A DNA stretch of 64,000 nt from assembly GCF_009689005.1 (NCBI RefSeq), contig NZ_AP021879.1, positions 496,001 through 560,000 on the forward strand, in the 5' to 3' direction. This document shows, in pieces, positions 2,995 to 55,613 of this stretch. The notes beneath the pieces were generated by a model that worked only from the letters and a program-made list of their open reading frames with translations, was not told where the DNA came from and did not search any database. Position 1 is the first letter of the stretch; each line of letters opens with the position of its first letter. The translations under genes were made by a program, and so were the position numbers. This stretch comes from Desulfosarcina ovata subsp. ovata. GTDB lineage: Bacteria > Desulfobacterota > Desulfobacteria > Desulfobacterales > Desulfosarcinaceae.

Positions 2995-3039
2995 TTGAAT
3001 GGCGGACGTTTACGCGTTGTGTTGGCCACAACGCCGGGT

Positions 3040-3195
3040 CTACCAAAGCGTGCGGATCGGATACTGCCGGATGAGGGAGTCGGGTGTCAGGATAGTTAAC
3101 GAACGTTCAATAGCCTGGCATACCAACATGCGGTCAAATGGATCCTTTTTCAAGATTACCCAGAGAAAAGCGCAGGTATCCAGAAGGAAACTCAT
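3040..3195 (-). pseudogene. VapC-type PIN-domain toxin, internally deleted remnant
   Basis: A 51-codon frame reads MSFLLDTCAFLW at its start and ends DPFDRMLVCQAIERSLTI then LTPDSLIRQYPIRTLW. The first part is the N-terminus of a PIN-domain RNase, with the metal-binding Asp in LLDTC. The second is the typical PIN C-terminus (DPFDRML, TPD, IRQYP). Intact toxins of this kind are about 125-130 residues, so roughly 75 central residues are missing and the two ends are joined in frame after residue 14. The start lies 3 bp from the insertion-sequence end at 3198, so any antitoxin gene that preceded it has been separated or lost. Its function is almost certainly gone. Confidence 0.72.
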
Positions 3196-3232
3196 TCATT
3201 TCGAGCTGTGCGGACGAAGATATCTTAAATGG

Positions 3233-4731
3233 TCAAGCAGCTAAGCTAAATTTTACTTCCTTATTGCTGAACCAATTGTGATATTCATCGTTGATTTTCA
3301 AAGTTGTGATAATAGCCAGATTGAGGGAACCTTTCTTCGCCCAACTCATTCCGTTCTTCTTTTGGCGATTTGAAACGACGAGGTCGTTCATCTTTTCACC
3401 CACATTACTTGAGTTCCGAAGATTTAACCGTTTGCGCATATCATAGTTGGGAATCGAGGATTTATTCCGACCCAAATAGTCAATGAGCTTTTGAATATGA
3501 TTCTCATCCTTGATTTCGGATGCCGGGATGTTTTCAAGATATGATATGGCCTTGTTTGTAAGGCCGTGCCACAACAACGGCATAACCGCGCGAAGCGTTT
3601 CATTTCTCAACTTTCTGCCTTTCATCCCCATGCTCAATTCTTCTTTGAACTTCTTGCATAGATGAAACCAATCAAGAACAATCTGCATATTATTGTACCA
3701 ACCAAATTGCTTGACGATGGCAGCATTTAGCGCCTTATGGCCGTCGGTAAAAATCTGAAGACGTTTGCCGAATAGAAAATTTGACAAAAGAAACGCGATT
3801 AGCAACCACAAGCATGATTTGGTGCCATCAGCTGCCAATACGTATTTTGGGCCTCCATGTTCAATGTGGCATACGGTATCATGTACATATTTTCGCGTAT
3901 GCTCAGTGATTTTTGGGCTTTCTCGTGTACCCTTCTGCCTTTTGGGGGTTACGTCGTCTATGCTTATGTTGACCGTTTGACTGGGTTCTTCGTAAATGAC
4001 GGGATTATTCAACAGTTCAATCGGATTATAGTCGAAAGATCCTTTAGAAAGGGCCTTGTGAACTTCATCCATGGGAATTGATATCGGTTCTCCGCCCCTG
4101 GGAATATCTGGGTTGATACAACATCCGTCAGCGCTGAAGTTGCCATGATTCAAATCATCGGCCTTTTGCTTTAAATGGTCGATCAATTCCCGACCTTCTT
4201 TCTGGGTCTGATCATGCAATGTGCGATGTGGCGTACCGCCTTCTATTTGGTGCCGTATGAAGTTGAGCCATTTTGATGTTTTCCGGAAGGATCCTTCCGT
4301 ATTACCCATAATCATGGCCCGTTCCTTAAAGCCCGTGGTCAAATAAAACTGATTCGTTCCTAATGGGGCAAATATCGATTGACTACTGTCAAACCGAACG
4401 CCATTTTCATCAAATGCGAAGTGGGTTTCAAACGCAAAACGCCCCACGGCGCCATCCACCAGATATGGGCTTTCATTTACCTCAATTTGATTAGCCCCAC
4501 TGAAAGTCAGGACTTTTTTTTAGACACCTTTTCCATGTGTCGTGCTATGGCGGCTCTTATTGCAGGGTATGCCGTATTTAAAATTGCTATTTCGCAGTCG
4601 TCTATATTTTCACCGGCATCAGCGTTTACAGTGTATTGATAACATCCATCTTCCAGTTCAATGGGCTTATCGTCCGTTTCCTCATCACATTCAACCAGGT
4701 TCACCATGACTTCGATTTTGTATTTGCTCAT
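3233..4731 (-). CDS. DDE transposase made by -1 programmed frameshifting (ORF A + ORF B)
   Basis: ORF A (4507-4731, 74 codons) starts at an ATG behind GGAGG. It ends with lysine codons in an A8 run followed by TCC TGA. ORF B (to 3233) has no ATG near its start and opens just after a TAA within the same run. A -1 slip on A AAA AAG joins them into a protein of about 495 residues. ORF B shows the order expected of a DDE enzyme: an Asp in VNISIDDVTPK, an Asp in IFTDGHKAL, then WFHLCKKF, and a Glu in SSNVGEKMND followed by NGMSWAKKGS. It catalyses movement of the surrounding element. The family is uncertain (ISKra4- or ISLre2-like features). Both frames look intact, so the element may be active. 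Confidence 0.8.
4513..4519 (-). other. Slippery heptamer A AAA AAG for -1 ribosomal frameshifting
   Basis: On the minus strand the ORF A frame reads TCT AAA AAA AAG TCC TGA, giving the canonical heptamer A AAA AAG. Slipping back one base leads into GTC CTG and the long ORF B. A Shine-Dalgarno-like AAAAGGTG lies just upstream, in the position where such a motif stimulates -1 shifting in dnaX-type sites. Downstream there is only a weak CTGA/TCAG hairpin. Confidence 0.75.
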
Positions 4732-4889
4732 TGGTAGCCTCCGTCTCGGGGTTTGAGATAGTGATCTACCAAAACATCGCATTTATCTTTAATGATGTCC
4801 AGTCAATTCCGAACCTATTTTCATATCTTAATTTTTGGTGAGCCCTTTGTGCAATATCCATCCTGGGCATGGTCCGCACAGCTCGAAAT

Positions 4890-5188
4890 TTTTTTATAAT
4901 GTCTGTTTTTTGCCGTGTTTCAAATCGTGATGCAGACACCGTATTAAAAACCGTGAGGGTCTCTCCTTTTGTCTCGGAGAGAATCCGAATATCGACTTGA
5001 TAGCACCAAATAGATAAGGTAAATGGATAATGGTCCGTGTTCCATTGTTCGTAATGGTCAACGGGGGCACGGGCCGTTCGATGTCTCTTTTTGACTGACC
5101 TGATGATTGACATGGAACAGTACGGCGGATCTTCCACAACGGCGGTGCCGGCCGTGCCCGGCAGGTACGCAAATCAAGGACCACGACC
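4890..5188. other. Intergenic region upstream of korD, no gene recognised
   Basis: About 300 bp between the insertion sequence and the ferredoxin gene. Frames here on both strands are short and resemble no family I know. The promoter of the kor-hdr cluster should lie here, but I see no convincing -35/-10 pair. The insertion may have altered the original upstream sequence. Confidence 0.4.
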
Positions 5189-5455
5189 ATGGAATTCTGG
5201 CGAGCCCCTCTGGATGCCCAGATTATCGACATCACCAAAGGCATCGTTCATATCATTGAAGACCGGTGCAAGGGATGCGGCTATTGCATCGAATTCTGTC
5301 CACGCAATATTTTGGCTTCATCCAAGCGGTTCAATAAAAAAGGATATCATCCGCCCGAAGTCACGGATCCGGAAGGCTGTGTCAATTGCCACTATTGCGA
5401 AATTATTTGCCCCGAATTCGCCATCTATTCGGTTTCCGATTCAACGCCCATTTAG
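5189..5455 (+). CDS. korD: 2-oxoacid:ferredoxin oxidoreductase, delta (ferredoxin) subunit
   Basis: An 88-residue protein with two complete 4Fe-4S motifs: Cys27-x2-Cys30-x2-Cys33-x3-Cys37 (CKGCGYCIEFCP) and Cys64-x2-Cys67-x2-Cys70-x3-Cys74. It is the small electron-transfer subunit that passes electrons from the TPP-containing beta subunit to external ferredoxin or to the Hdr proteins encoded downstream. The gene precedes korA by 19 bp, the usual korDABC order. The start is ATG with AAGGA about 10 bases upstream. Size and motif spacing match KorD/PorD. The substrate (2-oxoglutarate rather than another 2-oxoacid) is inferred from the alpha subunit. Confidence 0.9.
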   Translation: MEFWRAPLDAQIIDITKGIVHIIEDRCKGCGYCIEFCPRNILASSKRFNKKGYHPPEVTDPEGCVNCHYCEIICPEFAIYSVSDSTPI

Positions 5456-5474
5456 ATTACGGGGACGACATTCA

Positions 5475-6626
5475 ATGAACCACCGACCCGCTGTTTTAAC
5501 CGGAACGTACTACATGACCGGTGACGAGGCCTGTGCCGAAGGGGCCCTGGCCGCCGGATGCCGGTTCTTCGGTGCCTATCCGATCACGCCGGCAACCGAG
5601 ATTGCCGAGCACATGTCCATCCGGCTGCCCGAAGTCGGCGGCACATTCATCCAGATGGAAGACGAGATCGGAGCCATGGCATCCATTCTGGGGGCCGCCT
5701 GGTCGGGCCGGAAGAGCATGACCGCCACCTCGGGCCCCGGGTTCAGCCTGATGATGGAAAACATCGGACTGGGCGTGGTCACCGAAACCCCCTGCGTGGT
5801 GGTCAATGTGCAGCGCGGCGGCCCCTCCACGGGCCTGCCCACCATGACCGGCCAGGCCGACATGATGCAGGTGCGCTGGGGGTCCCACGGCGATTACGAG
5901 ATCATCGCCCTGGCCCCGGCCTCGGCCCAGGAAATTTTTTATCTGACCATCACGGCGTTTGACCTGAGCGAGACCTACCGCACACCGGTTTTCATCATGA
6001 CCGACGAAGTCATCGGTCACATGAGCGAAAAGGTGGTGATCCCGGAGGCGGCTGCCATCAAGCCGCGCACGCGTCCCAAACCCAAAGGGCGCAAGGACCG
6101 CTTCCTGCTCTACAAGCCGGATAAAAACGGCGTGGCGCCCATGCCAGCCGCCGGACAGGGCTACCATGTGCACGTCACCGGGCTGACCCACGACGAAAAA
6201 GGGTACCCGGTCATGGCTGTCGAGGCCCAGGAACAGATGATGGCGCGCCTGACCCGCAAGATCCTGGACAACCGTGCGGATATTATCCGGACCGAGGGCC
6301 AGCAGCTGGACGATGCCGAGATCGTGCTGGTCTCCTACGGCATTTCGGCCCGCACCAGCCGGGCCGCCATGGTCCAGGCCCGGGCCAGGGGGATGAAAGT
6401 GGGCCTGTTGCGCCTGATTACGGTCTGGCCGTTTTGCGAAAACCAGATCCGGGAGTTGTCCGAACGGGTCCGGGGATTTGTCACCGTTGAAATCAACCTG
6501 GGGCAGGTTCACCTGGAGGTGCAGCGGTGTGCCGGTGCCAGGGCGGCCTGCCATTTGGTGGGGCACGCCGGCGGCACGGTGATCACGCCGGAACAGGTCA
6601 TCGCCAAAATCGAGGAGGCGTTCTGA
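5475..6626 (+). CDS. korA: 2-oxoglutarate:ferredoxin oxidoreductase, alpha subunit
   Basis: 383 residues starting MNHRPAVLTG. The N-terminal pyruvate-flavodoxin/ferredoxin oxidoreductase domain carries GDEACAEGALAAGCRFFGAY, then the conserved stretch TSGPGFSLMMENIG. A middle and C-terminal transketolase-like region (VLVSYGISAR, LRLITVWPF) completes the subunit. Together with KorB it forms the catalytic TPP unit that oxidatively decarboxylates a 2-oxoacid with CoA, or runs in reverse. The overall layout fits the KorA (2-oxoglutarate) branch better than PorA, though VorB-like substrates cannot be excluded. Its stop overlaps the korB start (TGATG). A longer frame upstream from 5091 overlaps korD and is not the real start. 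Confidence 0.9.
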   Translation: MNHRPAVLTGTYYMTGDEACAEGALAAGCRFFGAYPITPATEIAEHMSIRLPEVGGTFIQMEDEIGAMASILGAAWSGRKSMTATSGPGFSLMMENIGLGVVTETPCVVVNVQRGGPSTGLPTMTGQADMMQVRWGSHGDYEIIALAPASAQEIFYLTITAFDLSETYRTPVFIMTDEVIGHMSEKVVIPEAAAIKPRTRPKPKGRKDRFLLYKPDKNGVAPMPAAGQGYHVHVTGLTHDEKGYPVMAVEAQEQMMARLTRKILDNRADIIRTEGQQLDDAEIVLVSYGISARTSRAAMVQARARGMKVGLLRLITVWPFCENQIRELSERVRGFVTVEINLGQVHLEVQRCAGARAACHLVGHAGGTVITPEQVIAKIEEAF

Positions 6627-7474
6627 TGGCAGGTGCCACGGCCCATGAAAAACAGACACTCGACATTGACACGCATCCCCTGGATGATCTGATCCGTACC
6701 GACCGTATTCCGCACATCTGGTGCCCGGGGTGTGGGATCGGCACGGCCTTTTCGGCCTGCCTGCGGAGCATGCGGAACAGCGGGATCGACCTTTCCAAGA
6801 CCTGTATGGTATCGGGCATCGGTTGCTCCGGACGGGCCGCGGGGTACATCAACCTGGATTCGTTCCACACCACCCACGGCCGGGCGATCCCGTTTGCCAC
6901 CGGACTCAAACTGGGCAATCCCGAACTCAATGTGGTGGTCTTCTCCGGTGACGGCGATCTCTTCGCCATCGGCGGCAACCATTTTATCCATGCCGCCCGC
7001 CGCAATATGGACCTGACCGTGATCTGCCTGAACAATTTGAATTACGGCATGACCGGTGGCCAGGTGGCGGCCACGACCCCGCACCAGGCCAAAACCACCA
7101 CGACCCAGAACGGCAATCCCGAGGCGCCCTTCAACCTGCCGCTGCTGGCCTTCGCGGCGGGGGCGACCTTTGTTGCCCGCTGGACCATCCTGCACACCCG
7201 GGAGCTGACCCAGTCCATTGAAAAGGCCCTGCTCAAGCCGGGCTTCTCTTTCATCGAGGTGCTGGGGCCGTGTCCGATCAATTACGGCCGCCGCAATCGG
7301 GAAAAGGCCATGGATACGTTGCGGCTCTATCAGGAGCGTACCATCATCGCCAACCACCCGGATATCACCGATCTGGATATCGATTTCCAAAAGCGAGTGA
7401 CCCTGGGTGAATTCGTGGACAAACAGCGGCCGACCTGTATCGAGGATTACGACCGGACGTGTCGGATGGTTTAG
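6626..7474 (+). CDS. korB: 2-oxoglutarate:ferredoxin oxidoreductase, beta (TPP-binding) subunit
   Basis: 282 residues starting MAGATAHEK, with GAGGAGG just upstream and an overlapping TGATG with korA. It has the CPGCG motif (Cys33, Cys36) that starts this subunit. The TPP/Mg motif follows as GDGD (residues 108-111) and NLNYGMTGGQ (about 137-146). A further Cys in GIGCSG may complete the cluster site. It binds thiamine diphosphate and a 4Fe-4S cluster and does the chemistry with KorA. Its length is normal for KorB. The gene is followed by a short run of near-tandem GGATAGG/GTAGGCT repeats before korC. Confidence 0.92.
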   Translation: MAGATAHEKQTLDIDTHPLDDLIRTDRIPHIWCPGCGIGTAFSACLRSMRNSGIDLSKTCMVSGIGCSGRAAGYINLDSFHTTHGRAIPFATGLKLGNPELNVVVFSGDGDLFAIGGNHFIHAARRNMDLTVICLNNLNYGMTGGQVAATTPHQAKTTTTQNGNPEAPFNLPLLAFAAGATFVARWTILHTRELTQSIEKALLKPGFSFIEVLGPCPINYGRRNREKAMDTLRLYQERTIIANHPDITDLDIDFQKRVTLGEFVDKQRPTCIEDYDRTCRMV

Positions 7475-7475
7475 G

Positions 7476-7513
7476 TGGATAGGTGGATAGGCTGTAGGCT
7501 GTAGGCTGAAATG
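7476..7513 (+). repeat. Short tandem-like repeat between korB and korC
   Basis: The 38 bp between the two genes are built from GTGGATAG x2 followed by GCTGTAG x2 units. The similar spacer at 11462-11525 uses CCATAGG/GATAG units. Both lie inside the same presumed transcript, so they may be simple-sequence expansions or spacing elements. No coding role is apparent. Confidence 0.6.
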
Positions 7514-7529
7514 GGTGAGGCAAAAAAAC

Positions 7530-8105
7530 ATGCAAAAGAAAATCGTGATCACCGGATTCGGCGGCCAGGGAGTTGTCCTGGCCGGTCGTATTGTGGGCAA
7601 GGCGGCGGCCATCCGTGACGGGCTGGAATCGACCCTGGTGCAGTCCTACGGGCCCGAATCCCGGGGAGGGGCCTGCAGCGCCCAGGTCACCATCGCCGAC
7701 AGACAGATTAACTACCCCTACATCCAGCATCCCGACATCCTGGTGGCCATGTCCCAGGCCGGGTATGAGAAATACAAGGCGCTGCTGATCCCGGAAGGCA
7801 TCCTGATTGTGGATCAGGATCTGGTAACGCCGGAAGCGGGGGCCGGTGGCTTCAGTGTTCCCAGTACACGGTTTGCCGAGGAGATGGGGCTGAAAATGAT
7901 CGCCAACATCATCATGGTCGGTTTTTTTACCGCCATCACCGATGCCATTACCCTGGAGGCGGCGCGGCAGACAGTGCGCGAATCGGTTCCCAAGGGGACC
8001 GAAGAGAAAAACCTGAAGGCCTTTGAGAAGGGCTGGGCCTATGGTCGCTCCAGCCTGAAAGCCCGTGCCAAGAAGGCGGCCGGCCAGATTGGAGCCTTTG
8101 CATGA
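7530..8105 (+). CDS. korC: 2-oxoglutarate:ferredoxin oxidoreductase, gamma subunit
   Basis: 191 residues starting MQKKIVITGFGGQGV, the diagnostic gamma-domain start, and then YGPESRGGACSAQVTI, also typical. An in-frame GTG at 7515 is possible, but GTGAGG lies where a ribosome-binding site for ATG 7530 should be. The gamma subunit contributes to CoA binding and the assembly of the KOR heterotetramer. Its ATGA overlap with the next gene (start 8102) implies that the large flavoprotein is made together with the oxidoreductase. Confidence 0.9.
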   Translation: MQKKIVITGFGGQGVVLAGRIVGKAAAIRDGLESTLVQSYGPESRGGACSAQVTIADRQINYPYIQHPDILVAMSQAGYEKYKALLIPEGILIVDQDLVTPEAGAGGFSVPSTRFAEEMGLKMIANIIMVGFFTAITDAITLEAARQTVRESVPKGTEEKNLKAFEKGWAYGRSSLKARAKKAAGQIGAFA

Positions 8106-11100
8106 AAAGTCCCAAGAACCGGCTGCACAGCGTGATGGTGGTGGGTGCCACCCCCGCGGGCGTGGCGGCGACCAACAAACTGGGAGAACTGGGCATTCCT
8201 GTCATCCTGGTGGACGCGGACGCCGATATCAACCGGCGACTGTCCGACGACGCCTATCGCCTGCCATCCGGGATTCCGCTGAATTTTGCCCATCGACCCG
8301 GCCTGATCCGTATCCTGCGCAATCCTGGGATTCGCTGTATCATGCCGGTCAGCGTTACCGGTGTGCGGCACAACCCCCAGGGGTTCGCCGTCAAAATCGA
8401 AACCACGCAGACCTTCGTGGACTCCAGCCGCTGCACCCTGTGCGGCCGCTGCGTGGCGGTCTGTCCCGGAGAAGCCGAAGCGGGATGCCGGCCGATCGCC
8501 TTTGAAAGCCGCATGGCGCTGCCGGGAAGGGCGGTGATCGACAAACGCCGGGAACCGCTTTGCCAGAACAGTTGCCCGTTGGGTGTCAATGCCCAGGGGT
8601 ATATCGCCCTGGCCAGAGCCGGCCGCTACGATAAGGCCCTGGCGCTGATCCGGCGCGACAACGTCCTGCCCGGCATCTGCGGGCGGGTCTGCCACCATCC
8701 CTGCGAAGAGGCCTGCCGGCGCGGCGAGGTGGATGGACCCCTGGCCATCCGGGACATCAAACGGTTCCTGGCCGATGTCGAGGCCCGGCAACCGCAGCCG
8801 GACGATGCCACGCCATCGGTGCCGTCTCCCACCCGGGCGGAAAAAATCGCCGTTGTCGGCTCGGGACCGGCCGGATTGGCCGCTGCCGCCGACCTGGCCC
8901 GGCAAGGCTTTGCAGTAACTATTTTTGAAAAAGAATCCCAGGCCGGCGGATTGCTGCGCTACGGCATCGGCCCCCACCGCTTGCCCAGAGCGATCCTGGA
9001 CCGGGAGCTTGACTATATCCGGCGGCTGGGGGTTGAAATCCAAACCGGCCAGCCGATCGACCTGGGCGGTGATTTCTCCGATCTGAAGAACCGTTTCGAT
9101 GCCGTACTTCTCACTGTGGGGTCATGGGCCGACCGGCGGCTCGGGATCACGGGCGAATCGCTGGATGGGGTGGACGGCTGTCTCGCACTTCTGCGGCAAT
9201 TTTACCGCGGTACGATCCAAGCCCTGGATGAAACGGTCGCGGTCATCGGTGACGGCAATGCCGCCTTTGACCTGGCGCGGGTACTGCACCGCCTGGGGGC
9301 CCGGGTGACCCTGATCTCCTGGTTCCCCATGGAGAAGATCCCCGCCGACGCCGAGGAGGTCGAGGCGGCCCTGGCCGAGGGAATCCCCATCGTTCACAGC
9401 CGACAGGTCACCGCGTTCAACGGTATCGAGGGGCGGCTTAAAGATCTCACCCTGATGCCCACCCGGCCGGGTGAAGCGGATGCCCAGGGCATTGCCTGGC
9501 CGGTCGTCGTCGATGGCGGTGCGGCCGAGTGGATGGCCGTGGACCGCGCCGTTGTGGCTATCGGCCAGACCGGCGCCTACACCGAAGGGCTGACCGCGAT
9601 CGCATCGACGCCCGGCGGTTATCTGGGGGTGGATGGTGACGGACGAACCCGCCTGCCGGGAGTATACGCTGCCGGGGATGCGGTTTCCGGTGCCAGTTCG
9701 GTGGTTCAGGCCATGGCCGGTGGACGGCTGGCCGCCGGGATCATCGCCAACGACCTGACGGGTGCTGATTGCGGTGTGGGCAGGGTGGCTACCGCGCGTC
9801 CTCCGGCGCGGGATTTTGTGCCCATCGATCCGGCCACGCCGACCTGTGAGCGCACTCCCATGGCGGAAATACCGCTGGCGGCTCGCCAAGCGAGCTTTGC
9901 CGAAGTGGCCTGCGGGTATGCTGAAAAGCAGGTGCAGCTGGAAGCGGCCCGCTGCCTGCAGTGCGCGGCCTGTGCCGAATGCCTGGAGTGTGTGAGTGCC
10001 TGCGGTGAGGTCCAGGCCATCCGGCACGATGAACCTGTGTTGTCAACCACCGAGAACGTCGGGGTGATGATTGTCGCCGATCCGGAACTGATCCCGTCGA
10101 TCCGTGGGGAAGACGTGATCCGTGCCTACGGTCCGGCGGCCGCCAAACCCGATGTGTTTGCCATGATCCTGCGCGGCCAGGCCGCTGCGGCCAAAGCCCT
10201 GGTACTGCTCAAAGGCGCCGCCGCCGGCCCCAAAGGACACGGCATTGCCTTCGTACCACCCGATCCGGGGCTGAACCCGGACATCCGGATGGGCGTATTT
10301 GCCTGCCGCTGTAACGACTCGCTTGGTTGGTCGGAAGGTATGGACGCCTATCTGCAGTGGCTTTACGACCGGCCGGAAATTGCCCATGCCGAGGCCGTGA
10401 ACGCGGCCTGCACCCCCGAGGGAATCGCCCATATCCTGGCCACCGTTCGGGAACTGGGCCTGACGCGGGTCGTGCTGGCGTCGTGCGTCTGCTGCCCGCT
10501 CGATTTCATCTGCAGCGCCTGCACCGACCAGCGCAGCCGGCTCAAGGTCGGACTCTTCAACGGCACCGGTATCAGCCGCGCCATGGTGCAGACCGTCAAC
10601 TTGCGCGGTGAAGTGCTGCGACTGATCAAGCAGCGGCCGGAACTGGCCCTGGAGCGGTTTACCGGGTTCATGGATCGGGCCATCAGCCATTCGGCCCATC
10701 TGCTGCCCTTTCCCGCGCCGGTCCGCAACTATAATTTCACTACCGCGGTGATCGGCGGCAACGAAGCGGCCCTGACGGCCGCAACGACTCTGGCCGAGGC
10801 CGGGCAGGATGTCATCCTGATCGGTGCCGATCCCCAAAACCGACAGCATCCCAATATTTACGCCCTGGCCGATACCCGGGTGACCGGCATCAGCGGAACC
10901 CTCGGCAATTTCGAGGTCCGCACCCACGGGCAATCAATGGATCGGACCTTTACCGTCGGGGGGATTATTCTGGGGGAAAAGACGCGTGATCTGTCGTTTT
11001 ACCACCGTCACGAGGGCCACCCGAATCACTTTCTGCACACCACCGCCCAGGATGGGAGGGATAATGGCACCCCCTTCCTTTATCCGGGGATGACCTCCAT

Positions 11101-11458
11101 CTCCGGTCTGTTTCTGGCCGATCCGTCCGGAGTGCCGATTTCCAAGCGGATCAAGGGGGCTGCTGCCGCTGTTCTGGCCGCCGCCGCCATGCCTATTGGG
11201 CCGCGACACAGCCGGGGCTTTTCCGTCAAGATCAAGGAAAACCAGTGTCGGGGCTGTGGCCGCTGCCTGGCGGTGTGCCCGTACCAGGCTATTGCCTTCA
11301 GGCCCAATGCCGTTGGCGGGTACTATGCCGAGGTGGACGATGCCCTGTGCAAGGGGTGCGGCAATTGTATCTCCGTCTGCCCGTCGGATGCGGCCGACAG
11401 TCCCTACCGCGACCATGTGTATCTGGAACAGACCGTGGAGAAACTGCTGGTGAGTTAG
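8102..11458 (+). CDS. Giant FAD/NAD(P)H iron-sulfur protein, HdrA-like with a GltD-type domain
   Basis: 1118 residues. Order of parts: Rossmann start VMVVGATPAGVAA (about 12); 4Fe-4S CTLCGRCVAVCP (about 111); GltD-like iron-sulfur region CQNSCPLG...CGRVCHHPCEEAC (about 154-205); FAD fold VVGSGPAGLAAAADLA (about 250); NAD(P)H fold AVIGDGNAAFDLA (about 379); GVYAAGDAVSGASS (about 520). Then come a Cys cluster CLQCAACAECLECVSAC (about 618), HdrA-like C-terminal parts FACRCN and LASCVCCPLDF, and a final 2x4Fe-4S ferredoxin (about 1049 and 1083). It resembles glutamate synthase small subunit/NfnB embedded in an HdrA-like protein, so I infer that it exchanges electrons between NAD(P)H and ferredoxin or KOR. 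The start overlaps korC. The exact nucleotide specificity cannot be read by eye. Confidence 0.85.
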   Translation: MKSPKNRLHSVMVVGATPAGVAATNKLGELGIPVILVDADADINRRLSDDAYRLPSGIPLNFAHRPGLIRILRNPGIRCIMPVSVTGVRHNPQGFAVKIETTQTFVDSSRCTLCGRCVAVCPGEAEAGCRPIAFESRMALPGRAVIDKRREPLCQNSCPLGVNAQGYIALARAGRYDKALALIRRDNVLPGICGRVCHHPCEEACRRGEVDGPLAIRDIKRFLADVEARQPQPDDATPSVPSPTRAEKIAVVGSGPAGLAAAADLARQGFAVTIFEKESQAGGLLRYGIGPHRLPRAILDRELDYIRRLGVEIQTGQPIDLGGDFSDLKNRFDAVLLTVGSWADRRLGITGESLDGVDGCLALLRQFYRGTIQALDETVAVIGDGNAAFDLARVLHRLGARVTLISWFPMEKIPADAEEVEAALAEGIPIVHSRQVTAFNGIEGRLKDLTLMPTRPGEADAQGIAWPVVVDGGAAEWMAVDRAVVAIGQTGAYTEGLTAIASTPGGYLGVDGDGRTRLPGVYAAGDAVSGASSVVQAMAGGRLAAGIIANDLTGADCGVGRVATARPPARDFVPIDPATPTCERTPMAEIPLAARQASFAEVACGYAEKQVQLEAARCLQCAACAECLECVSACGEVQAIRHDEPVLSTTENVGVMIVADPELIPSIRGEDVIRAYGPAAAKPDVFAMILRGQAAAAKALVLLKGAAAGPKGHGIAFVPPDPGLNPDIRMGVFACRCNDSLGWSEGMDAYLQWLYDRPEIAHAEAVNAACTPEGIAHILATVRELGLTRVVLASCVCCPLDFICSACTDQRSRLKVGLFNGTGISRAMVQTVNLRGEVLRLIKQRPELALERFTGFMDRAISHSAHLLPFPAPVRNYNFTTAVIGGNEAALTAATTLAEAGQDVILIGADPQNRQHPNIYALADTRVTGISGTLGNFEVRTHGQSMDRTFTVGGIILGEKTRDLSFYHRHEGHPNHFLHTTAQDGRDNGTPFLYPGMTSISGLFLADPSGVPISKRIKGAAAAVLAAAAMPIGPRHSRGFSVKIKENQCRGCGRCLAVCPYQAIAFRPNAVGGYYAEVDDALCKGCGNCISVCPSDAADSPYRDHVYLEQTVEKLLVS

Positions 11459-11530
11459 GAAGGTAGGGTGAGCGGCCATATTAGGCTATGGGCGATAGAC
11501 CATAGGTGATAGGCCATAGGAATTGAAACA
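11459..11530. repeat. Simple repeats in the gap before the hdrCB-mvhD gene
   Basis: The gap is made of CTATGGGCGATAG, ACCATAGG and GCCATAGG-like units that partly pair with each other. It lies inside a co-directional gene set, like the repeat at 7476-7513. No gene is present. Confidence 0.5.
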
Positions 11531-13120
11531 ATGCCTGACTATAAAATTATTGTCTTTCTCTGCAACTGGGGACCCCATGCCGCGTTTCAGCACCTCCAGG
11601 ATCAGGGCGCGGACATCCCGAGCGAAATCAAAATGATTCGCATTCCCTGCAGTGGCCGGATCACCAAGGCTCTGTTGCTGCGGTCCTTCGAGATGGGCGC
11701 CGACGGTGTAATGCTGCTGGGATGCCAGTCCGGCACCTGCCGTTATGGCAGCGGGACCCGCAGTGCCCACGGCAACACCTCCGAAACCTGCCGGATTCTC
11801 GACCTGATGGGGATCGGTGCCGATCGTCTGCAACTGGACAATTTTTTGCCGGACCGGCCCCAGGTCCTGCTCGCTCGCCTGCAGGCATTTGTCCGGCAGA
11901 TTTATGAAATGGGCCACAGCCCGATTTTGCCGCACGCGTCGGTCAGGGGCGAGGCGCCGGCCGCATTGACGCCCGAGGCCATTGTGGCGGCCCACGACGT
12001 CTTTGCCTGCCAGGACTGCGGCAAATGCACCTCGGCCTGTTCCCTGGCCCTGGCCGGCAAACCGTACTCGCCCCGCGAGATCGCCAATCGCATCATCGCC
12101 GGCCGGGCCGATGATCCGGACGTACGCCAGGCGGTCAATGCCTGCCTGACCTGTGGGCTCTGTTACGAGCGCTGTCCCTCGGCGGTCAATTTCCCGGCGT
12201 TCATCCGCTCCATGCGTGCCTATTACCATCACCACCGGCTGGTCGAAGCGCCAACCCACGGCGGTTTTTTCCAGAGCATGATGCGCGCCATGACCGCCGA
12301 GAACCTGTTGCCGCGGCGCTGGCGCGATCTGCCCGCGGAGATCCGCACCCGGGCTGGCGCTCCGGTGCTTTTTTTCGGGGGGTGCGCCCCGTATTTCGAC
12401 ATCTTTTTCAACCGGTTTCTCGGCGTACAGACCGCCCGGATCCTGGAGGACAGCCTGCGGTTGCTCAATTTTTTCGATGTGGAGCCGGCGGTGCTGGAAA
12501 ACGAGACCTGCTGCGGCCATGATCTGCTCTGGACCGGTGACCGGGAAAACTTCCTGCGCCTGGCCCGGCGCAATGCCCGGGCCTTTGCCGATTCCGGTGC
12601 CGGTGAGCTGGTTACCGCCTGCCCGGAGTGCTATCACACCCTGGCCCACGACTATCCGGAAAATGGTGTCCCGCTGCCTTTGACCGTGACCCACATTCAC
12701 GAATTTCTGGAGCGTGAGATCGACAAGGGGGCGGTGGGATTCAAGCCCCTCGGGGCCACGGTGACCTTCCAGGACGCGTGCCGCCAGAGCCGTTTCGACG
12801 GACGGTCCGACCTGCCCCGCAAACTGCTGGCACGCATGACCGGCACCGAGCTGCTCGAAATGCCGGAGTCGGGCAGTGGCGCCGTGTGCTGCGGCAACAG
12901 CGCCTGGACCGGCTGCGATGCCTATTCCAAGTCCCTGCAGGTCAAACGGATTACCAGCGCCCGGCAGACGGGCAGCGAGGTGATCCTCACTGCCTGCCCC
13001 AAGTGTCAGATCCACCTGCGCTGCGCCATGGAGGATGCCATGCGGGCCGAGGATCTGCAGCTGGAGACCATGGATCTGACCAGCGCCATCGCCCGGACGA
13101 TTTATTGGGAAGGGAGTTGA
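11531..13120 (+). CDS. MvhD-HdrC-HdrB fusion protein
   Basis: 529 residues. An N-terminal MvhD/FlpD-like 2Fe-2S domain (about 1-135) has CNWG (Cys11), CSGR (Cys40) and GCQSGTC (Cys65, Cys70). The family normally has CNWC, so the second Cys is Gly14 here. An HdrC-like part follows with two 4Fe-4S motifs, CQDCGKCTSAC (about 160) and CLTCGLCYERCP (about 205). The HdrB-like part carries two CCG modules: CCGHD with CPEC (about 327-367) and CCGNS with CPKC (about 453-492). In known heterodisulfide reductases these parts carry electrons from HdrA to a disulfide-like acceptor at the HdrB clusters. The acceptor in this organism is unknown. It stands between the GltD/HdrA-like protein and Sec-HdrA and presumably bridges them. 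Confidence 0.88.
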   Translation: MPDYKIIVFLCNWGPHAAFQHLQDQGADIPSEIKMIRIPCSGRITKALLLRSFEMGADGVMLLGCQSGTCRYGSGTRSAHGNTSETCRILDLMGIGADRLQLDNFLPDRPQVLLARLQAFVRQIYEMGHSPILPHASVRGEAPAALTPEAIVAAHDVFACQDCGKCTSACSLALAGKPYSPREIANRIIAGRADDPDVRQAVNACLTCGLCYERCPSAVNFPAFIRSMRAYYHHHRLVEAPTHGGFFQSMMRAMTAENLLPRRWRDLPAEIRTRAGAPVLFFGGCAPYFDIFFNRFLGVQTARILEDSLRLLNFFDVEPAVLENETCCGHDLLWTGDRENFLRLARRNARAFADSGAGELVTACPECYHTLAHDYPENGVPLPLTVTHIHEFLEREIDKGAVGFKPLGATVTFQDACRQSRFDGRSDLPRKLLARMTGTELLEMPESGSGAVCCGNSAWTGCDAYSKSLQVKRITSARQTGSEVILTACPKCQIHLRCAMEDAMRAEDLQLETMDLTSAIARTIYWEGS

Positions 13121-13159
13121 GAAACTGATTTTTACTATCAGAAATGTATAGGTATTTCT

Positions 13160-15613
13160 ATGACGACGCAAACGACCTTGACAGCTTCGGTCCCTTCCGC
13201 AGACAGCGCTCATGATGCCCTGCGCGTGGGCGTTTATGTGTGCCACTGCGGTCTGAACATTGCCCAGACCGTGGATTGTGACGGGATTGCCGAGAGAGCG
13301 ACCGGTCTGGCCGATGTGACCGTGGCCAAGGGCATCGGCTATGCCTGCAGCGAACCGGGCCAGCGGGAGATCCGGGACGACATTGCCGAGCACGGCTTGA
13401 ACCGCATTGTGGTGGCCTCATGCTCACCGCGCCTGCACGAGCCTACCTTCCGCCAGATGCTGAAAGACGCCGGGCTCAACCCCTACCTGCTGGAGATGGC
13501 CAACCTGCGTGAGCAATGCAGTTGGGTCCACATGCACGACAAGGGGGCGGCCACGGACAAGGCCTGGGACCTGATCAAGATGGCCGTGGCGCGGGTACGC
13601 CGACTGAGTGCTTTGAGCGAAACCCGGTTGCCCATGACCCAGCGGGCGCTGGTGATCGGCGGCGGCGTGGCCGGCATCCAGTCGGCACTGGACCTGGCCG
13701 ACAACGGCTATGATGTGGTCATGATAGAAAAGCAGCCCTCCATCGGCGGGGTCATGGCCCAGTTGGACAAGACCTTTCCCACCATGGACTGCTCCATCTG
13801 AATTCTGGGGCCCAAAATGACGGATGCCGGTCGGCATCCCCGCATCACCATCCACACCTTGAGCGAAGTGGTGGATGTCAACGGACACGTGGGCAGTTTT
13901 GACGTGCGAATCGTCAAGAAAGCCCGCTATGTGGATGAAACCGCGTGCACCGCCTGCGGCGACTGCGCCACGGTGTGCCCGGTGGTCCGGCCGGATGAAT
14001 TCAACATGGGGCTTTCCTCGCGCCGGGCGATCTACTCTCCCTTTCCCCAGGCCGTGCCATCGGCCTACGTGCTCAACCCCCACGAGTGCCTGGGCAACAA
14101 TCCCACGGTATGCACCAAGTGCCTGGAGGCCTGTGAGAAGAAGTGCATCGACTTCCACATGTCCGATCAGACCCTTACCGAGCGGGTCGGCACGATCGTG
14201 GTGGCCACCGGCCTGTCGCCCTTTGATCCGCGCAAACTGGATGAATACGGCTACACGCGCTTTGAGAACGTGCTTACCAGCCTGGAATTCGAACGTATGG
14301 TCAATGCCGGTGGCCCCACCCAGGGGGAACTGGTGCGCCCCACCGACCGGCGACGGCCCAAAAGCGTCGGTTTCGTGCAATGCGTAGGGTCCCGGTCGGC
14401 CCGGCGGGGAAAATCATACTGCTCCAACACCTGCTGCATGAATACGGTCAAAAGCACGCTGGTGCTCAAGGAGCACTACCCGGACATGGCGATCACGGTC
14501 TTTTACATTGACATCCGCGCCTTCGGCAAAGGCTTCGAGGATCTTTTCACCCGCAGCCGGCGTAAGGGCACGCATTATGTTCGCGGCCTGCCGGGCAATG
14601 TCGAACCGCTTCCCGATGGCAGCCTGCGGGTGGCCGTGGAGAACACCGCCACCGGCCGCCTGGATTATTACGATCTGGAGTTGCTGGTACTGGCCGTGGG
14701 AATGGAACCGGCCCCCGGCACCCAGCGCCTGCAGGAGATGCTGGGGTTGCAGCTGACGTCGGACGGATTCTTCCTGGAGGCCCATCCCAAGCTGCAGCCC
14801 GTGGATGCCGCCACTCGGGGGGTATTCTACGCCGGCTGCGCCGAAGGCCCCAAGGATATCAAGGAGAGCGTCACCCAGGCCTCGGCCGCCGCGGTGCGCG
14901 CCATCCGCCTGATGCATGCCGGGCACATCACTGCCGAGGCCATCACCGCCGAAGTGGTTCCCGAGTTGTGCAAGGCTTGCGGCAAGTGTGCCGAAGTGTG
15001 CCCTTATAATGCCATCAGCGTGGATGTCAAAGCGAAGCAGCCGGCCCGGATCACCGCTGCCGCCTGCAACGGCTGCGGCACCTGTGCGGCCGAGTGCCCC
15101 TTTGGTGCCATCGTCACCCACCATTTTACCGATCCCCAGATCATAGACCAGATCGACGCCCTGCTGGAAGAACGGCCCGAGGATAAGATTCTCACCTTTG
15201 CCTGCAACTGGTGCTCCTATGCCGGGGCCGACTATGCCGGGGTGTCCCGGCTGCAGTATCCGCCAAACGCGAGGCTGATCCGCACCATGTGTTCGGGGCG
15301 CGTGGACGACGCGTTCATCTGGCACGCGTTCAAAAAGGGCGCACCGGTGATCCTGGTCAGCGGCTGTCACATCGGCGACTGCCACTACATCGATGCCAAC
15401 CACTGGACGGAAAAACGCATCCAGAAGGTTCGTGCAAAAATGGAAAAACGCGGCATCCGGCCCGAGCGGCTCCAGCTGGAGTGGATCAGCGCCGCCGAGG
15501 GGGTACGGTTTGCCGAGGTGATGATCCGCATGGAATCCCTGCGCCAGTCCGTGAGCGCAGCGGAAATCGCCGAGACCGTCGCCATCCTCACTAAGGATCG
15601 GGAATTTTATTAA
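13160..15613 (+). CDS. hdrA: Selenocysteine-containing HdrA-MvhD fusion (in-frame UGA at codon 214)
   Basis: 817 residues if the TGA at 13799-13801 is read as selenocysteine. The frame continues unbroken on both sides (DCSI-U-ILGPKM), exactly where HdrA proteins have an iron-sulfur-ligand Cys. A SECIS-like hairpin follows. Parts: HdrA start VYVCHCG and ASCSPRLHEPTF; FAD fold VIGGGVAGIQSA (about 163); 4Fe-4S CTACGDCATVCP (about 262); C-terminal 2x4Fe-4S CKACGKCAEVCP and CNGCGTCAAECP (about 600-650); MvhD domain CNWCSY, CSGR, GCHIGDCHY (about 680-800). HdrA is the FAD-bearing electron-bifurcating subunit. The last residues (TKDREFY, stop) come from a palindromic repeat that covers the gene end. 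Gene callers will split it into two at the UGA. Confidence 0.9.
13799..13839 (+). promoter_or_regulatory. Bacterial SECIS element following the UGA codon of hdrA
   Basis: Downstream of UGA 13799-13801 lies a perfect 7-bp stem, GGATGCC (13822-13828) and GGCATCC (13833-13839), closing a GGUC tetraloop. The loop is the same tetraloop as in the E. coli fdhF SECIS as I know it. It sits 28-31 bases after the UGA, inside the distance range that bacterial SelB uses. This strongly favours Sec insertion over a frame-ending stop. Confidence 0.85.
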
Positions 15614-15767: not shown

Positions 15768-16127
15768 TCAAGAAATGCTGTTTTTATCTATTTTTATGGT
15801 GGATTGGGTCACATCCTGAAGATTCGCCGGAAATCGGCCGTCCTTTAACAGCCTCATTTCCATCGCTTCCTTGAACATCACGGCGAAACCCTCCGGATGG
15901 CTTCGTACGACCGTGCCCATGATGCTGAGCCGTCTTCCGAAGGCAAATACCGGAATTTGGATGTTGATGGTTCGTCCTTGTATGATTTTCCTCCGGGATC
16001 TGATAAATGCACCCCCGGCACCGATGTTTTGAATGAGATCGCGGAACGTTCCCTCTTTGACGGTATATTTGGTACTGAATACCGCGGTGTAACGGCTGAA
16101 CTGGCGTCGATGAGGTACCGCATTCAT
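15768..16127 (-). CDS. PilZ-domain protein
   Basis: 119 residues from the ATG at 16127, which overlaps the ihfA stop (ATGA) and suggests coupled translation. A longer start at 16163 would overlap ihfA by 40 bases. The N-terminus has HRRQFSRY, matching the RxxxR c-di-GMP-binding motif. The second motif reads NIGAGGAF instead of the usual (D/N)xSxxG, with Gly in the Ser place. The remainder (TINIQIPVF, RLSIMGTVVRSHPEGFAVMF) is the PilZ beta barrel. Probable role: single-domain c-di-GMP receptor; the changed motif may weaken binding. It lies downstream of ihfA and convergent with hdrA. Confidence 0.85.
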   Translation of the reverse strand: MNAVPHRRQFSRYTAVFSTKYTVKEGTFRDLIQNIGAGGAFIRSRRKIIQGRTINIQIPVFAFGRRLSIMGTVVRSHPEGFAVMFKEAMEMRLLKDGRFPANLQDVTQSTIKIDKNSIS

Positions 16128-16408
16128 TTCCCGTTTACCTTGTTTCTTAACTGTCCTGAGCATTTGAACGTTACCACCCGCCTTGGCCTCAGCATCAAAT
16201 CTTTACCGGTGGCGGGGTTGCGGCCTTTTCGTTCGTTTTTTTCTCTTACACAAAACTTGCCGAAGCCGGAGACCAGGACATCGTCGCCGGCCGATAGGGT
16301 CGATTTTATAAGCTCAAGCAAGTTTTCCGTGATTTCCGTGGATTGTTTTTTGGGAAAGCCAAGTTGAGAACAGATTCGTTCCGCAATATCCTGTTTGGTC
16401 AATGCCAT
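16124..16408 (-). CDS. ihfA: Integration host factor alpha-type DNA-bending protein
   Basis: 94 residues from MALTKQDIAERICSQLGF, with GGAG about 10 bases upstream. It shows the full HU/IHF fold, with the beta-arm RNPATGKDLMLRPRRVVTF carrying the RNP loop that intercalates DNA. The MALTK start and GFGKFCVREKNERKGRNP resemble IHF alpha more than HU. It would act as a nucleoid-associated DNA-bending protein and as a cofactor for recombination and transcription, and IHF also assists CRISPR spacer integration in some systems. The pairing with a PilZ gene appears to be an operon. Confidence 0.88.
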   Translation of the reverse strand: MALTKQDIAERICSQLGFPKKQSTEITENLLELIKSTLSAGDDVLVSGFGKFCVREKNERKGRNPATGKDLMLRPRRVVTFKCSGQLRNKVNGK

Positions 16409-16906
16409 GGGGCTTTTTCTCCGGTTTGGTTGTCCTGAATGTTCGGGTAAGACGCATACACGTTCGCAAAGATCGATTTGCTTGTCAAGGAATTGGTATG
16501 ACTTCACAAAACGGGAGTGCAACACCGATGATCGCTTCGCCCATTTTTCTGTTGTTGCAATGCCCGGTCGGCAGCGCTCCTCAGGATGGCCTGAGGTCTC
16601 TAAACCAGCGGCTTACAATAAATCGCCTTCCCGTCTCCCTGATGGTGTTGTGCTTAAATATGCCTATGGCGCATTGAAAATTTGAGTATTTCTACCAATT
16701 GTTATCTCTCATCTTCATATCTTATATAAAAGCTGGCAACAAATACCTGTCCGTTTGAATGTGCTGAAAGAAAAAATTGAACAAATTGATCGAGTAGGGC
16801 GGCCTCCCCGGATTCTGTGATGTGGCCAAGGGCCCTTTCGTCCCATTGGGCATCCGGCCGCCGGGGGTACCAAACCACCAAACCATTTGGGAAAGGATAA
16901 ACCGTC
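16409..16906. other. Non-coding stretch of about 500 bp
   Basis: No frame here shows a family signature or good initiation signals. It contains the first copy (16681-16728) of a direct repeat seen again at 17858-17905. The ihfA promoter should lie in the left part. Confidence 0.4.
16681..16728. repeat. Direct repeat, copy 1 (partner at 17858-17905)
   Basis: About 38 of 48 positions match the second copy. The shared core is ACCAATTGTTAT followed two to four bases later by TCATCTTCAT. The two copies bracket a 1.1-kb stretch holding one hypothetical gene and pseudogene debris. Confidence 0.65.
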
Positions 16907-17275
16907 ATGACAATTGAAGCCATAGACAATGGACAAAATGAGCGCCTGGAGGATTTCATCCGGTTGGCGATGGGTGGCCGGAAGGTTTCGCTCAAAATCA
17001 ACCTTTATCGCAACCTGGTGAAACAAGTAAGCCAGTCCGAATCAACGGATGACATTCCCATTGAAACAGACATGTGCCTGTTCATGGCCGATTTCATCCC
17101 GACGCCACTGATCCCGGGATACCCGGAGAAGATTACCAAGGTCTATGCCCTGTGTTCGATCAACGAAAGCGAAGTCAATGACAAAACCATCCGCCACATT
17201 GCCAATCAGCGGTTGGATATGGATTATGCGCGGCTTAAAAATGCCGGCATCGTTTTTGAGTCCTCCTATTTATGA
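16907..17275 (+). CDS. Conserved-looking hypothetical protein, 122 residues
   Basis: Starts MTIEAIDNGQNERLEDF, with AAAGGA about 12 bases upstream. It has no signal peptide, membrane segment or cysteine cluster, and is rich in acidic and basic residues with a mostly helical pattern. A motif-like stretch is DMCLFMADFIPTPLIPGYP. I do not recognise a family. Codon use resembles the neighbours, so it is probably real. It lies alone between two copies of a direct repeat and upstream of broken genes. Confidence 0.6.
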   Translation: MTIEAIDNGQNERLEDFIRLAMGGRKVSLKINLYRNLVKQVSQSESTDDIPIETDMCLFMADFIPTPLIPGYPEKITKVYALCSINESEVNDKTIRHIANQRLDMDYARLKNAGIVFESSYL

Positions 17276-17323
17276 TTCAATCGTTCGTTGATGATGGGGC
17301 GTGGCAGGAACGGGTAAACGGTT

Positions 17324-17500
17324 ATGTTGCAGAACCCACTAAGCACTCCATTTCAGCCCCGTGGGGCAGCCACCGGCATTGGAAGTCTGCCTTTTACGGA
17401 TACCCAAACGGCACTCTCCCTGATCGCCGAATATCTGCCTGAAATTCCCCACTGGCCGCAGCTGCCCCAGCGCGGTCGGTGTGAGCATTTCATTCACCGG
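17324..17500 (+). pseudogene. N-terminal fragment of a MetE/UROD-like protein
   Basis: The frame reads GAATGIGSLPFTDTQTALSLI and then EYLPEIPHWPQLPQRG, the characteristic start of the UROD/MetE-like family (usually about 340 residues). Only some 55 residues remain before the frame runs into unrelated PAS-domain sequence, so this is a truncated, probably non-functional remnant joined to debris by rearrangement. Confidence 0.6.
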
Positions 17501-17503
17501 TCC

Positions 17504-17863
17504 AGAAAGAAATCAGCTGGATGTTTCTCCACAAATGGCTGCAAATCGGAGATGAGAAACGTCTGGCGTGGATCCATCCGGATGACCGTGATCGCGTGCT
17601 GAAGCATTTCAGCGACGTCACCCATCTCAGGCCCGATCAGGTTCACGACGGCGCGCTGGTCTATTGCCTGTGAATCAAAGAGGATGGATACCGATGGTTG
17701 AGGGACCGTTTTGTTGTCATCTTCAACGAAAACGACCTGCCCCATGCCCTGATCGGCAGCCTCACCGATATCACGGTCGAGAAACAAGCTGAAAATACCC
17801 TGCAGACCTATGCGCACATTGTTTCGGCCTCGAGCGAGTACCTGGCACTGATCGATCTTTGAG
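17504..17863 (+). pseudogene. PAS/PAC sensor fragment with an in-frame stop
   Basis: Read in frame from AAA GAA ATC AGC TGG ATG, the sequence gives WIHPDDRDRVLKHF and, after a TGA at 17671, IKEDGYRWLRDRFVVIF and LIGSLTDITVEKQAEN, a complete PAS-PAC signature. It ends at TGA 17861-17863. A short HATPase remnant 0.7 kb downstream may be the other end of the same lost kinase gene. Confidence 0.65.
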
Positions 17864-17905
17864 CAGTTTTACCAATTGTTATGTGTCATCTTCATGTCAT
17901 ATTAA
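17858..17905. repeat. Direct repeat, copy 2 (partner at 16681-16728)
   Basis: It starts with the same TTTGAG and contains the same ACCAATTGTTAT core as copy 1. It overlaps the end of the PAS fragment. Confidence 0.65.
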
Positions 17906-18236
17906 TAGTCGTGGCGAGTGCTCCCCCTGATGCTTTCTGCGCCGGTGCGAAAAAATATACTTGGCCGATCGACCCAACAACGATAACGCACGTGAACAGC
18001 AAAAAAAGCATTTCAAAATCAGGCAACGGATGCATGACCATAAACCGAAATCGATCGTGTGGTTGCCGCCTCGGAAGTGGAGATGATGTAAGGATCGGGG
18101 TGGATTGCCTCTTTGTCGGACAGCCGGCGTTTCGCCATGAAGCATGCTATCGCCATGACGGCCCTGCATTTTTCGATCAATGTCAGCACCGACAACTTGA
18201 TTGATATCTATCAAACGGTCATCGCCGCCTGAGGTC

Positions 18237-18395
18237 AGGCGATTGGCGGAAAAGAATATACCAGGATGCGCCGGATTTTCATTCGTATTCAAGGCGGGCT
18301 TTTTTACGCATAGTGGGGCTATGTGTGGAAACGCCCAACGTAGAAGACGGATGAAAAGACAAGCAGGCGGGTATATTCTTTGACAGAAATCGCCT
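18237..18395. repeat. Long imperfect palindrome (MITE- or foldback-like), 159 bp
   Basis: The ends pair: AGGCGAT...AGAATATACC on the left and GGTATATTCT...ATCGCCT on the right. Inner segments pair too: TTTTCATTCGT with ACGGATGAAAA, GGCGGGC with GCCC, and CGCATAG with CTATGTG around a small central loop. The whole element would fold into one long hairpin. It lies inside a decayed sensor-kinase region. No second copy is in the window. Confidence 0.65.
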
Positions 18396-18588
18396 AACGA
18401 TTCAAAGCGCCGGCGAAATTCGAACAACGATCCGATTAGATCCCATTGCCGGCCCATCGCGATCTATCTGAAGTCGGCGATAAACGCGTTGTTACCCACT
18501 GCCAGAAGTGTACCGGAACGTCTTCGGAGACCTCCGTCATTTCCATGCAACGGGCGTCGGCGTTAACAACGCCATCCACGGGCTGATC

Positions 18589-55416: not shown

Positions 55417-55575
55417 TTCAAAATATTAAGATCGGGTTAGGGTAATGGGGTTGGGCAGGGGGACGCCCCTTTCAAAACGTTTTTTGTTGCATGGCAGCCA
55501 CCCGGATGATGAATCAGGGGCCAAATATAGATCATTGACCGTTAAATTACAAGAGATTGACATGGATGATTTTAC

Positions 55576-55595: not shown

Positions 55596-55613
55596 CATGA
55601 CAGGCTAATCTCC

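Follow-up and report, generated by a model that had tools for sequence, protein, structure and literature searches.

In methanogens, the complexes MvhADG-HdrABC and FdhAB-HdrABC combine an HdrA subunit that carries flavin adenine dinucleotide (FAD) and a Lys/Glu pair with MvhD, HdrC and HdrB. In Desulfobacterota and other anaerobes, FlxABCD-HdrABC and MetFV-HdrABC couple reduced nicotinamide adenine dinucleotide (phosphate), NAD(P)H, or a carbon enzyme to Hdr (PMC10553843, PMC5736913). Here we describe a seven-gene unit, korD-korA-korB-korC, hdrL', mvhD-hdrC-hdrB and hdrA-mvhD, which is contiguous on the forward strand at 5189-15613 of a 64,000-nucleotide stretch of the Desulfosarcina ovata subsp. 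ovata genome (NZ_AP021879.1, positions 496,001 to 560,000; hereafter the window). Compared with the methanogen complexes, a four-subunit 2-oxoacid oxidoreductase (KOR) and a GltD module take the place of the hydrogenase or formate dehydrogenase; compared with the Flx and MetFV systems, the unit is without Flx or Met genes, its NAD(P)H site lies inside HdrL' and its carbon enzyme is the KOR. The gene unit itself is solid. From the sequences we lean slightly towards the view that its products form one soluble bifurcating complex, in which 2-oxoacid oxidoreductase, NAD(P)H and a disulfide would be joined via the HdrA flavin.

The name HdrL' is used for a 1118-residue protein with a GltD core plus HdrA-like and ferredoxin segments. 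HdrL was described in Desulfobacterium autotrophicum HRM2 as an HdrA/glutamate-synthase fusion encoded beside mvhD, in some cases with selenocysteine (PMC2702500). The other HdrL proteins, with open frames mostly of about 1100-1550 residues, stand apart from HdrL', which forms a separate group with about 35-40% identity to them, and they align with it over only ~60% of its length. Furthermore, KOR genes adjoin HdrL' but rarely other HdrL, the two cases found being a Zixibacteria locus with a long HdrL (L092; L and G numbers are our labels for loci and genomes) and a contig-cut locus (L097). The type III HdrA of archaea also has GltD inserted in an HdrA-like chain, and the use of NADH has been proposed there (PMC12054007). 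In contrast to that protein, HdrL' has GxGxxA and not GxGxxG, the Lys/Glu pair was not found in it in an alignment read by eye, without structural superposition, and the bifurcating site would lie on a separate HdrA. The StnABC and NfnABC transhydrogenases share a GltD module that shuttles electrons to a separate bifurcating flavin, as shown for Stn, whose bifurcating module is HydBC-like, whereas here it would be HdrA. In Thermococcus kodakarensis, a 2-oxoglutarate oxidoreductase (OGOR) co-purifies as part of larger redox assemblies (PMC12016516). The partners of that enzyme are MBS and FDH, with no Hdr. Phenylglyoxylate dehydrogenase (Pad) unites a 2-oxoacid oxidoreductase and an NADH module in one NADH-dependent enzyme. 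The models for PadE, F, G and I gave only about 25-72 bits in this unit (cut-offs 150-700), PadH was not among the 25 NCBIfam rows listed for HdrL', and the present unit adds Hdr. No earlier description of a KOR-Hdr pairing appeared among the literature matches listed, which do not cover the HdrA(BC) module review of Appel et al. 2021, where one could be found.

The linkage of the seven genes was followed across 395 sampled genomes from the phylum, with loci picked by HdrL' alone (E ≤ 1e-200). HdrL' was detected in 41 of these genomes, about one tenth, and 40 loci, the own one excluded, were fetched together with flanks of up to 8 kb either side. At every one of the 34 loci that are uncut by a contig end, each of the seven genes has a homologue and the order is the same: a script scored 30 as complete, and in four more (L130, L150, L151 and L158) the full ordered set is accompanied by one additional weak match. 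The six contig-cut loci agree as far as their sequence reaches. In a distant set of nine of the 34 (for instance L157 and L159), MvhD and HdrCB are separate matches and probably separate genes. The identity of HdrL' to that of the window is about 47-60% in most Desulfobacterota members and 32-36% in the distant set, with KOR still adjoining. These 34 untruncated loci rule out a chance juxtaposition. The gene order and domain calls of the first-pass annotation are borne out by the coordinates and by Pfam and NCBIfam, and the linkage on which it had staked its proposal was found well beyond this genome.

A second set, the named loci, comprised the best 80 of at least 579 HdrL matches; it overlaps with the sampled loci in genomes, and the two sets of counts are not independent. 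It was split into a family set of 47 (L039-L082, L084, L092 and L097) and a control set of 33, with L092 and L097 assigned to the family for having KOR, though their HdrL matches are as weak as those of the controls. Twenty-three of the family loci are complete, L092 also has the full set, here with a long HdrL and additional HdrA modules, and 22 of the remaining 23, which are contig-cut, agree as far as they reach. By comparison, KOR was found beside only 2 of 35 weaker HdrL loci, namely L092 and L097, the other 33 being without it, and at 2/22 other HdrL-type loci when only those with more than 3.4 kb upstream were counted. One Anaerolineae bin also carries the seven-gene unit, that is, beyond the phylum; at L097 (Abyssobacteria) and L079 (Anaerolineae), KOR and HdrL are followed by the contig end. 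In L092 (7048-22002), korDABC precedes the long HdrL, further HdrA modules, separate MvhD and HdrCB matches and HdrA-MvhD, and two selenocysteine-type HdrA sites are present. Within the own genus, a clear HdrL' orthologue was seen in only one of 12 relatives (G006, a fragment with 81% identity), so the unit is patchy. In a tree of 31 HdrL' rows, the window stands beside two Desulfatitalea rows, and the two Anaerolineae rows form one branch. Pairwise-identity correlations over 36 loci were 0.78-0.92 among six of the proteins and 0.49-0.61 with korD; without an unlinked control, they carry little weight.

The spacing of the genes bears on whether their products work together. The korC-hdrL' junction is the exact boundary between the KOR half and the Hdr half, and it is the tightest of the six, with a median of -4 bp, an overlap in 42/63 cases and 62/63 within 20 bp (some genomes being counted twice), which suggests translational coupling of the two halves. 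One alternative, which we consider rather unlikely, is that of separate, co-regulated enzymes: the KOR would use or make soluble ferredoxin, a free HdrL'/HdrABC would trade it with NAD(P)H and disulfide, and the operon would serve to match their amounts. Four-subunit KORs normally work with soluble ferredoxin, the ferredoxin-domain cysteines of HdrA are intact, and at the five other junctions the spacing is unremarkable, with medians of 3 to 29 bp (n 15 to 73). Separate enzymes do not readily account for an overlap placed exactly at the KOR/Hdr boundary, nor for an order kept beyond the phylum with KOR in all 34 complete units. No gene family was conserved beside the unit in the available flanks of the 40 loci, many of them short, and the unit looks self-contained for that reason. 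Within these flanks, no eighth partner such as succinyl-CoA synthetase or dsrC emerged, the sole family present in at least four loci being a PAS-type sensor/regulator-like one, found in 10 at varied distance. The lack of a hydrogenase, formate dehydrogenase or Flx/Nuo partner, as first annotated, also holds: none was matched in the 10 scanned of the 37 non-overlapping open reading frames (ORFs) of at least 110 residues outside the cluster in the window, nor as a conserved neighbour.

The view favoured here, of a single bifurcating complex, is based on the 34/34 linkage, the tight korC-hdrL' junction, the Lys/Glu pair of HdrA and the CCG cysteines. The sequences establish which genes are present, their order and conservation, the selenocysteine codon with its SECIS hairpin and the cofactor motifs; complex formation, bifurcation, substrate, direction and the identity of the disulfide are all inferred. 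KorABCD would interconvert 2-oxoacid plus coenzyme A (CoA) and acyl-CoA plus CO2, with low-potential electrons passing via KorB and KorD. The GltD-type FAD of HdrL' would be the site of electron exchange with NAD(P)H, the iron-sulfur clusters of this protein would relay the electrons in the manner of a StnC-like shuttle, and the mid-potential electrons of NAD(P)H would be split at the FAD of HdrA-MvhD. One branch would lead from this FAD through the HdrA ferredoxin domains to KorD, and the other through HdrC and the CCG clusters of HdrB to the disulfide. The balance would be 2 NAD(P)H + disulfide + succinyl-CoA + CO2 = 2 NAD(P)+ + 2 thiols + 2-oxoglutarate + CoA. With potentials of about -0.52, -0.32 and -0.15 V, this reaction is near equilibrium, and either direction would therefore be possible. 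A more specific version, which we put forward tentatively, is a ferredoxin-independent, self-contained, NAD(P)H-driven and CO2-fixing 2-oxoacid synthase, in which KorD would be the built-in low-potential acceptor of HdrA bifurcation. If this is true, the disulfide would pay for the reduction of succinyl-CoA and CO2 to 2-oxoglutarate by NAD(P)H and, in reverse, the energy of 2-oxoacid oxidation would be captured as NAD(P)H. It would then be, as far as we know, the first case of electron bifurcation hard-wired to a 2-oxoacid oxidoreductase.

Table 1. Features of the KOR-Hdr unit, in positions of the window (TPP, thiamine pyrophosphate; SECIS, selenocysteine insertion sequence; aa, amino acids).
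Feature	Position	Strand	Description
korD	5189..5455	+	88-aa delta subunit, 2x[4Fe-4S] ferredoxin; best NCBIfam model OGOR_delta, 62 bits (cut-off 125)
korA	5475..6626	+	alpha subunit, 2-oxoacid oxidoreductase; POR_N, PFOR_II, YPITP motif; PRK08659 566 bits (cut-off 411)
korB	6626..7474	+	beta subunit; TPP_enzyme_C; TPP and one [4Fe-4S]
korC	7530..8105	+	gamma subunit (POR); alternative GTG start at 7515; stop overlaps hdrL' start by 4 bp
hdrL'	8102..11458	+	1118-aa HdrA/GltD protein; GltD-type FAD and NAD(P) sites
hdrL', further segments	within 8102..11458	+	degenerate HdrA-type Rossmann segments, several [4Fe-4S] motifs, C-terminal 2x[4Fe-4S]
mvhD-hdrC-hdrB fusion	11531..13120	+	529 aa; FlpD, Fer4 (HdrC, 2x[4Fe-4S]) and 2xCCG (HdrB)
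hdrA-mvhD fusion	13160..15613	+	817-aa selenoprotein; HdrA2 1187 bits (cut-off 1100) and FlpD
In-frame TGA, selenocysteine codon (U214)	13799..13801	+	inside hdrA-mvhD
SECIS hairpin GGATGCC-GGTC-GGCATCC	13822..13839	+	inside hdrA-mvhD

With regard to the KOR half, the hallmarks of a four-subunit TPP enzyme are present in the YPITP motif and in the clusters of KorB and KorD. All eight cluster cysteines of KorD are conserved in 60 distinct rows, window included, and C33, C36, C67 and C216 of KorB in 66/66. The best PDB match of KorA is 1yd7, the alpha subunit of a 2-keto acid:ferredoxin oxidoreductase (376 bits), and that of KorB is 8ys5, the beta subunit of a 2-oxoglutarate ferredoxin oxidoreductase (217 bits). 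The 2-oxoglutarate/succinyl-CoA pair would be the most likely substrate. Another 2-oxoacid, for example 2-oxobutyrate, a branched or an aromatic one, would be compatible with any of the mechanisms considered; it is a possible but not a likely substrate. In its favour, the one KorA model whose cut-off was passed is the general NCBIfam model for 2-oxoacids; against it, KorB is closest to a 2-oxoglutarate enzyme among solved structures. The position of Lys49b of StOFOR is occupied by Arg in KorB, likewise in the 2-oxoglutarate enzyme 8ys5 and in 6n2n. According to published mutants, 2-oxoacid specificity shifts easily (PMC5020499).

In the Hdr half, the HdrA has a FAD motif of the GxGxxG type, and its K431 and E378, which correspond to K409/E356 of Methanothermococcus thermolithotrophicus HdrA, are kept in 59/59 distinct rows. 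A 2025 survey proposed this pair to separate bifurcating from non-bifurcating HdrA (PMC12054007). Together with the HdrA2-family score above the cut-off, the pair favours a bifurcating HdrA. A disulfide site on HdrB agrees with its two CCG sets for noncubane clusters (C285, C327, C328 and C364; C417, C453, C454, C489 and C492), kept in 58/58 rows, with C367 retained in 88% of rows, window included; the eight cluster cysteines of HdrC are kept in 58 rows. One complex without bifurcation, in which the electrons of the 2-oxoacid would simply flow downhill to NAD(P)+ and the disulfide, seems unlikely. Such a flow would be thermodynamically easy from about -0.5 V, and the FlpD domain fused to HdrCB has one cysteine fewer than the HdrA-fused FlpD (4 of 5), but the invariance of the bifurcation-type Lys/Glu pair in HdrA speaks against it.

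The first-pass annotation recognised the seventh gene as an HdrA-MvhD fusion, which stands; it did not mention that the frame runs through an in-frame TGA, at which a plain ORF caller splits the gene into 13160-13801 and 13817-15613. The TGA sits in the motif DCSI-U-ILGPKM, and two solved methanogen HdrAs that were aligned have Cys at the U214 position. A stop codon is found at this site in 36/36 sequences (the window and 35 named loci), 33 of them as TGA by pattern and three (L072, L073 and L080) by eye, and U is present in 59/59 distinct near-full-length HdrA rows. A hairpin starts 23 nt past the T of the TGA. Its survey required a literal TGA and yielded 61 distinct 48-nt segments from 72 of 87 sources, the remaining 15 being without an hdrA match. 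The loop is GGTC in 59/61 segments and GGTA in 2/61; in the stem, one pair covaries (CG 28, TA 23, TG 10), five inner pairs are invariant and the outermost pair is broken in 6. At the varying pair, the 5' base switches Ala/Val and the 3' base is silent within an Arg codon. The own genome also encodes a tRNA-Sec (75.4 bits, above the cut-off). By its in-frame TGA, downstream SECIS hairpin and tRNA-Sec, the seventh gene qualifies as a selenoprotein HdrA; a frameshift or pseudogene is ruled out by the TGA in frame, universal among readable HdrA, and by the conserved hairpin. Selenocysteine in HdrA was known earlier from D. autotrophicum (PMC2702500). The proposed bifurcating subunit is uniform in this respect, and the role of the residue is open to testing.

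HdrL' keeps the FAD motif of GltD; its HdrA-type Rossmann segments are degenerate in most rows and no DCSI-U motif was seen in its N-terminal part. It probably has a single working flavin site, that of GltD, and the bifurcating site should therefore be in the seventh gene and not in the fifth. The GltD domain is placed within an HdrA-like chain, with the GltD fold at residues 148-633 and HdrA-model matches further along. A good AlphaFold2 model of the protein was obtained (mean predicted local distance difference test score 83.5, predicted template modelling score 0.78); among solved folds, StnC and NfnABC come closest to it, with Z 41-44 and a root-mean-square deviation of 2.7-3.2 over 467-472 residues. 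The structure matches listed are GltD-type, and the HdrA-like parts do not show as such among them. The GltD flavin of Stn no longer bifurcates and serves only to pass electrons on to a bifurcating module elsewhere in the enzyme, and K170 of StnC ligates the FAD-proximal cluster (PMC10482914). K220 of HdrL' aligns with this residue and is invariant in 32/32 rows; the position is also Lys in two NfnABC chains and Glu in the NfnB chain 4ylf_B. As StnC and NfnABC are the closest folds and K220 is the StnC-type Lys, the GltD module would act as an electron shuttle, with bifurcation placed at HdrA. Two bifurcating sites, with the GltD flavin of HdrL' also bifurcating as in NfnB, are highly improbable, for in spite of a strong match to NfnI (5jca_L, Z 35.4, root-mean-square deviation 2.4 over 402 residues) and the nearly invariant R286 in the GGLLRYG motif, all 32 rows have the Lys of the non-bifurcating StnC where NfnB (4ylf_B) has Glu.

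The pyridine-nucleotide pocket of HdrL' (residues 383-408, 9248-9325) occurs in three alternatives: YRR, the NADPH-binding GltD type, in 10/68 rows, an SWF type in 51/68 and an acidic AIE/GIE in 7/68. YRR is also found in two relatives outside the 68-row set (L014 and L017). These alternatives point to changes of cofactor inside a single conserved unit. The own genome also holds at least four other HdrL paralogues, at 2900858, 2935979, 3333448 and 3880539, with open frames of 1222-1515 aa, and one of them has an in-frame TGA.

Several observations weigh against the view favoured here. KorA, KorB, KorC and KorD all fall below the 2-oxoglutarate-specific NCBIfam cut-offs (OorA, OorB, OorC, OorD and OGOR_delta), and a K49R mutant of StOFOR, which has the same residue as KorB, preferred pyruvate (PMC5020499). 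The nucleotide criteria of HdrL' disagree, YRR being lost in 58/68 rows and GxGxxA, read as NADP-type (PMC12054007), being kept in 68/68. Another korDABC, unlinked to the unit, lies at 1.57 Mb of the own genome (L178, 1566000-1582000), which has further KOR-like genes besides both, and at least one more KorA-like gene occurs in 15/16 carriers tested, so that this unit is not the sole basis of 2-oxoacid chemistry. The exception among the contig-cut named loci, L055 (3613-11347), has no HdrA in the 6.2 kb past mvhD-hdrCB, which may be a real loss, a relocation or a misassembly, and in L080 (Anaerolineae) the HdrA lies 4.8 kb beyond HdrCB. Finally, DsrC, a candidate for the disulfide, was found in 16/23 carriers and not in the other seven, all of them metagenome-assembled genomes that include both Anaerolineae bins and the Zixibacteria bin. 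Around the second korDABC, no Hdr gene was present in the 16 kb taken, and TRAP-transporter-like and CoA-transferase-like genes, named by a look at the sequence only, adjoin it.

DsrC as an obligatory acceptor is unsupported by these carrier counts, although all the negatives are metagenome-assembled genomes; three DsrC-family genes are present in the own genome. With regard to direction, a probable Desulfococcus multivorans genome (G034) has the unit (L169) at 0.32 Mb. In the D. multivorans proteome, an HdrA1 encoded at 0.32 Mbp, near mvhD1 and a pyridine nucleotide oxidoreductase, was detected exclusively when n-butanol, 1-propanol or butanoate had served as growth substrate (PMC5109826); the words kor and oxoglutarate are absent from the main text of that article. 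This growth pattern would fit an NADH-rich state and is no proof of direction. For sulfate reducers, we have a weak preference for the reductive direction, driven by NAD(P)H.

The surroundings of the unit differ in composition, the flanks at 2000-5100 and 16000-18500 having a lower G+C (about 0.49-0.50) and ORFs with mostly low third-position GC. Neither of the two flanking ORFs compared with Pfam, 3236-4315 and 15897-16364, gave a match, and scans of the locus for repeats, promoters and terminators were uninformative. Elsewhere in the window, the reverse strand at 48718-57876 encodes a polyunsaturated fatty acid/polyketide synthase of the PfaA type, with 1629 bits for TIGR02813 (cut-off 1010), and a protein of the PfaD family, with 606 bits for TIGR02814 (cut-off 449), which stand in the genome of an apparent sulfate reducer.

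With this unit, a 2-oxoacid enzyme joins the partners already known for HdrABC, namely formate dehydrogenase, Flx, MetFV and hydrogenase. The synthesis of 2-oxoglutarate from succinyl-CoA needs electrons of very low potential, and how carbon fixation through the reductive tricarboxylic acid cycle is supplied with reduced ferredoxin has been called still unresolved (PMC10052474). If the proposed complex is real, it would generate such electrons in place from NAD(P)H, or store those released when a 2-oxoacid is oxidised, and so give a direct answer, open to testing, in a different group of anaerobes.

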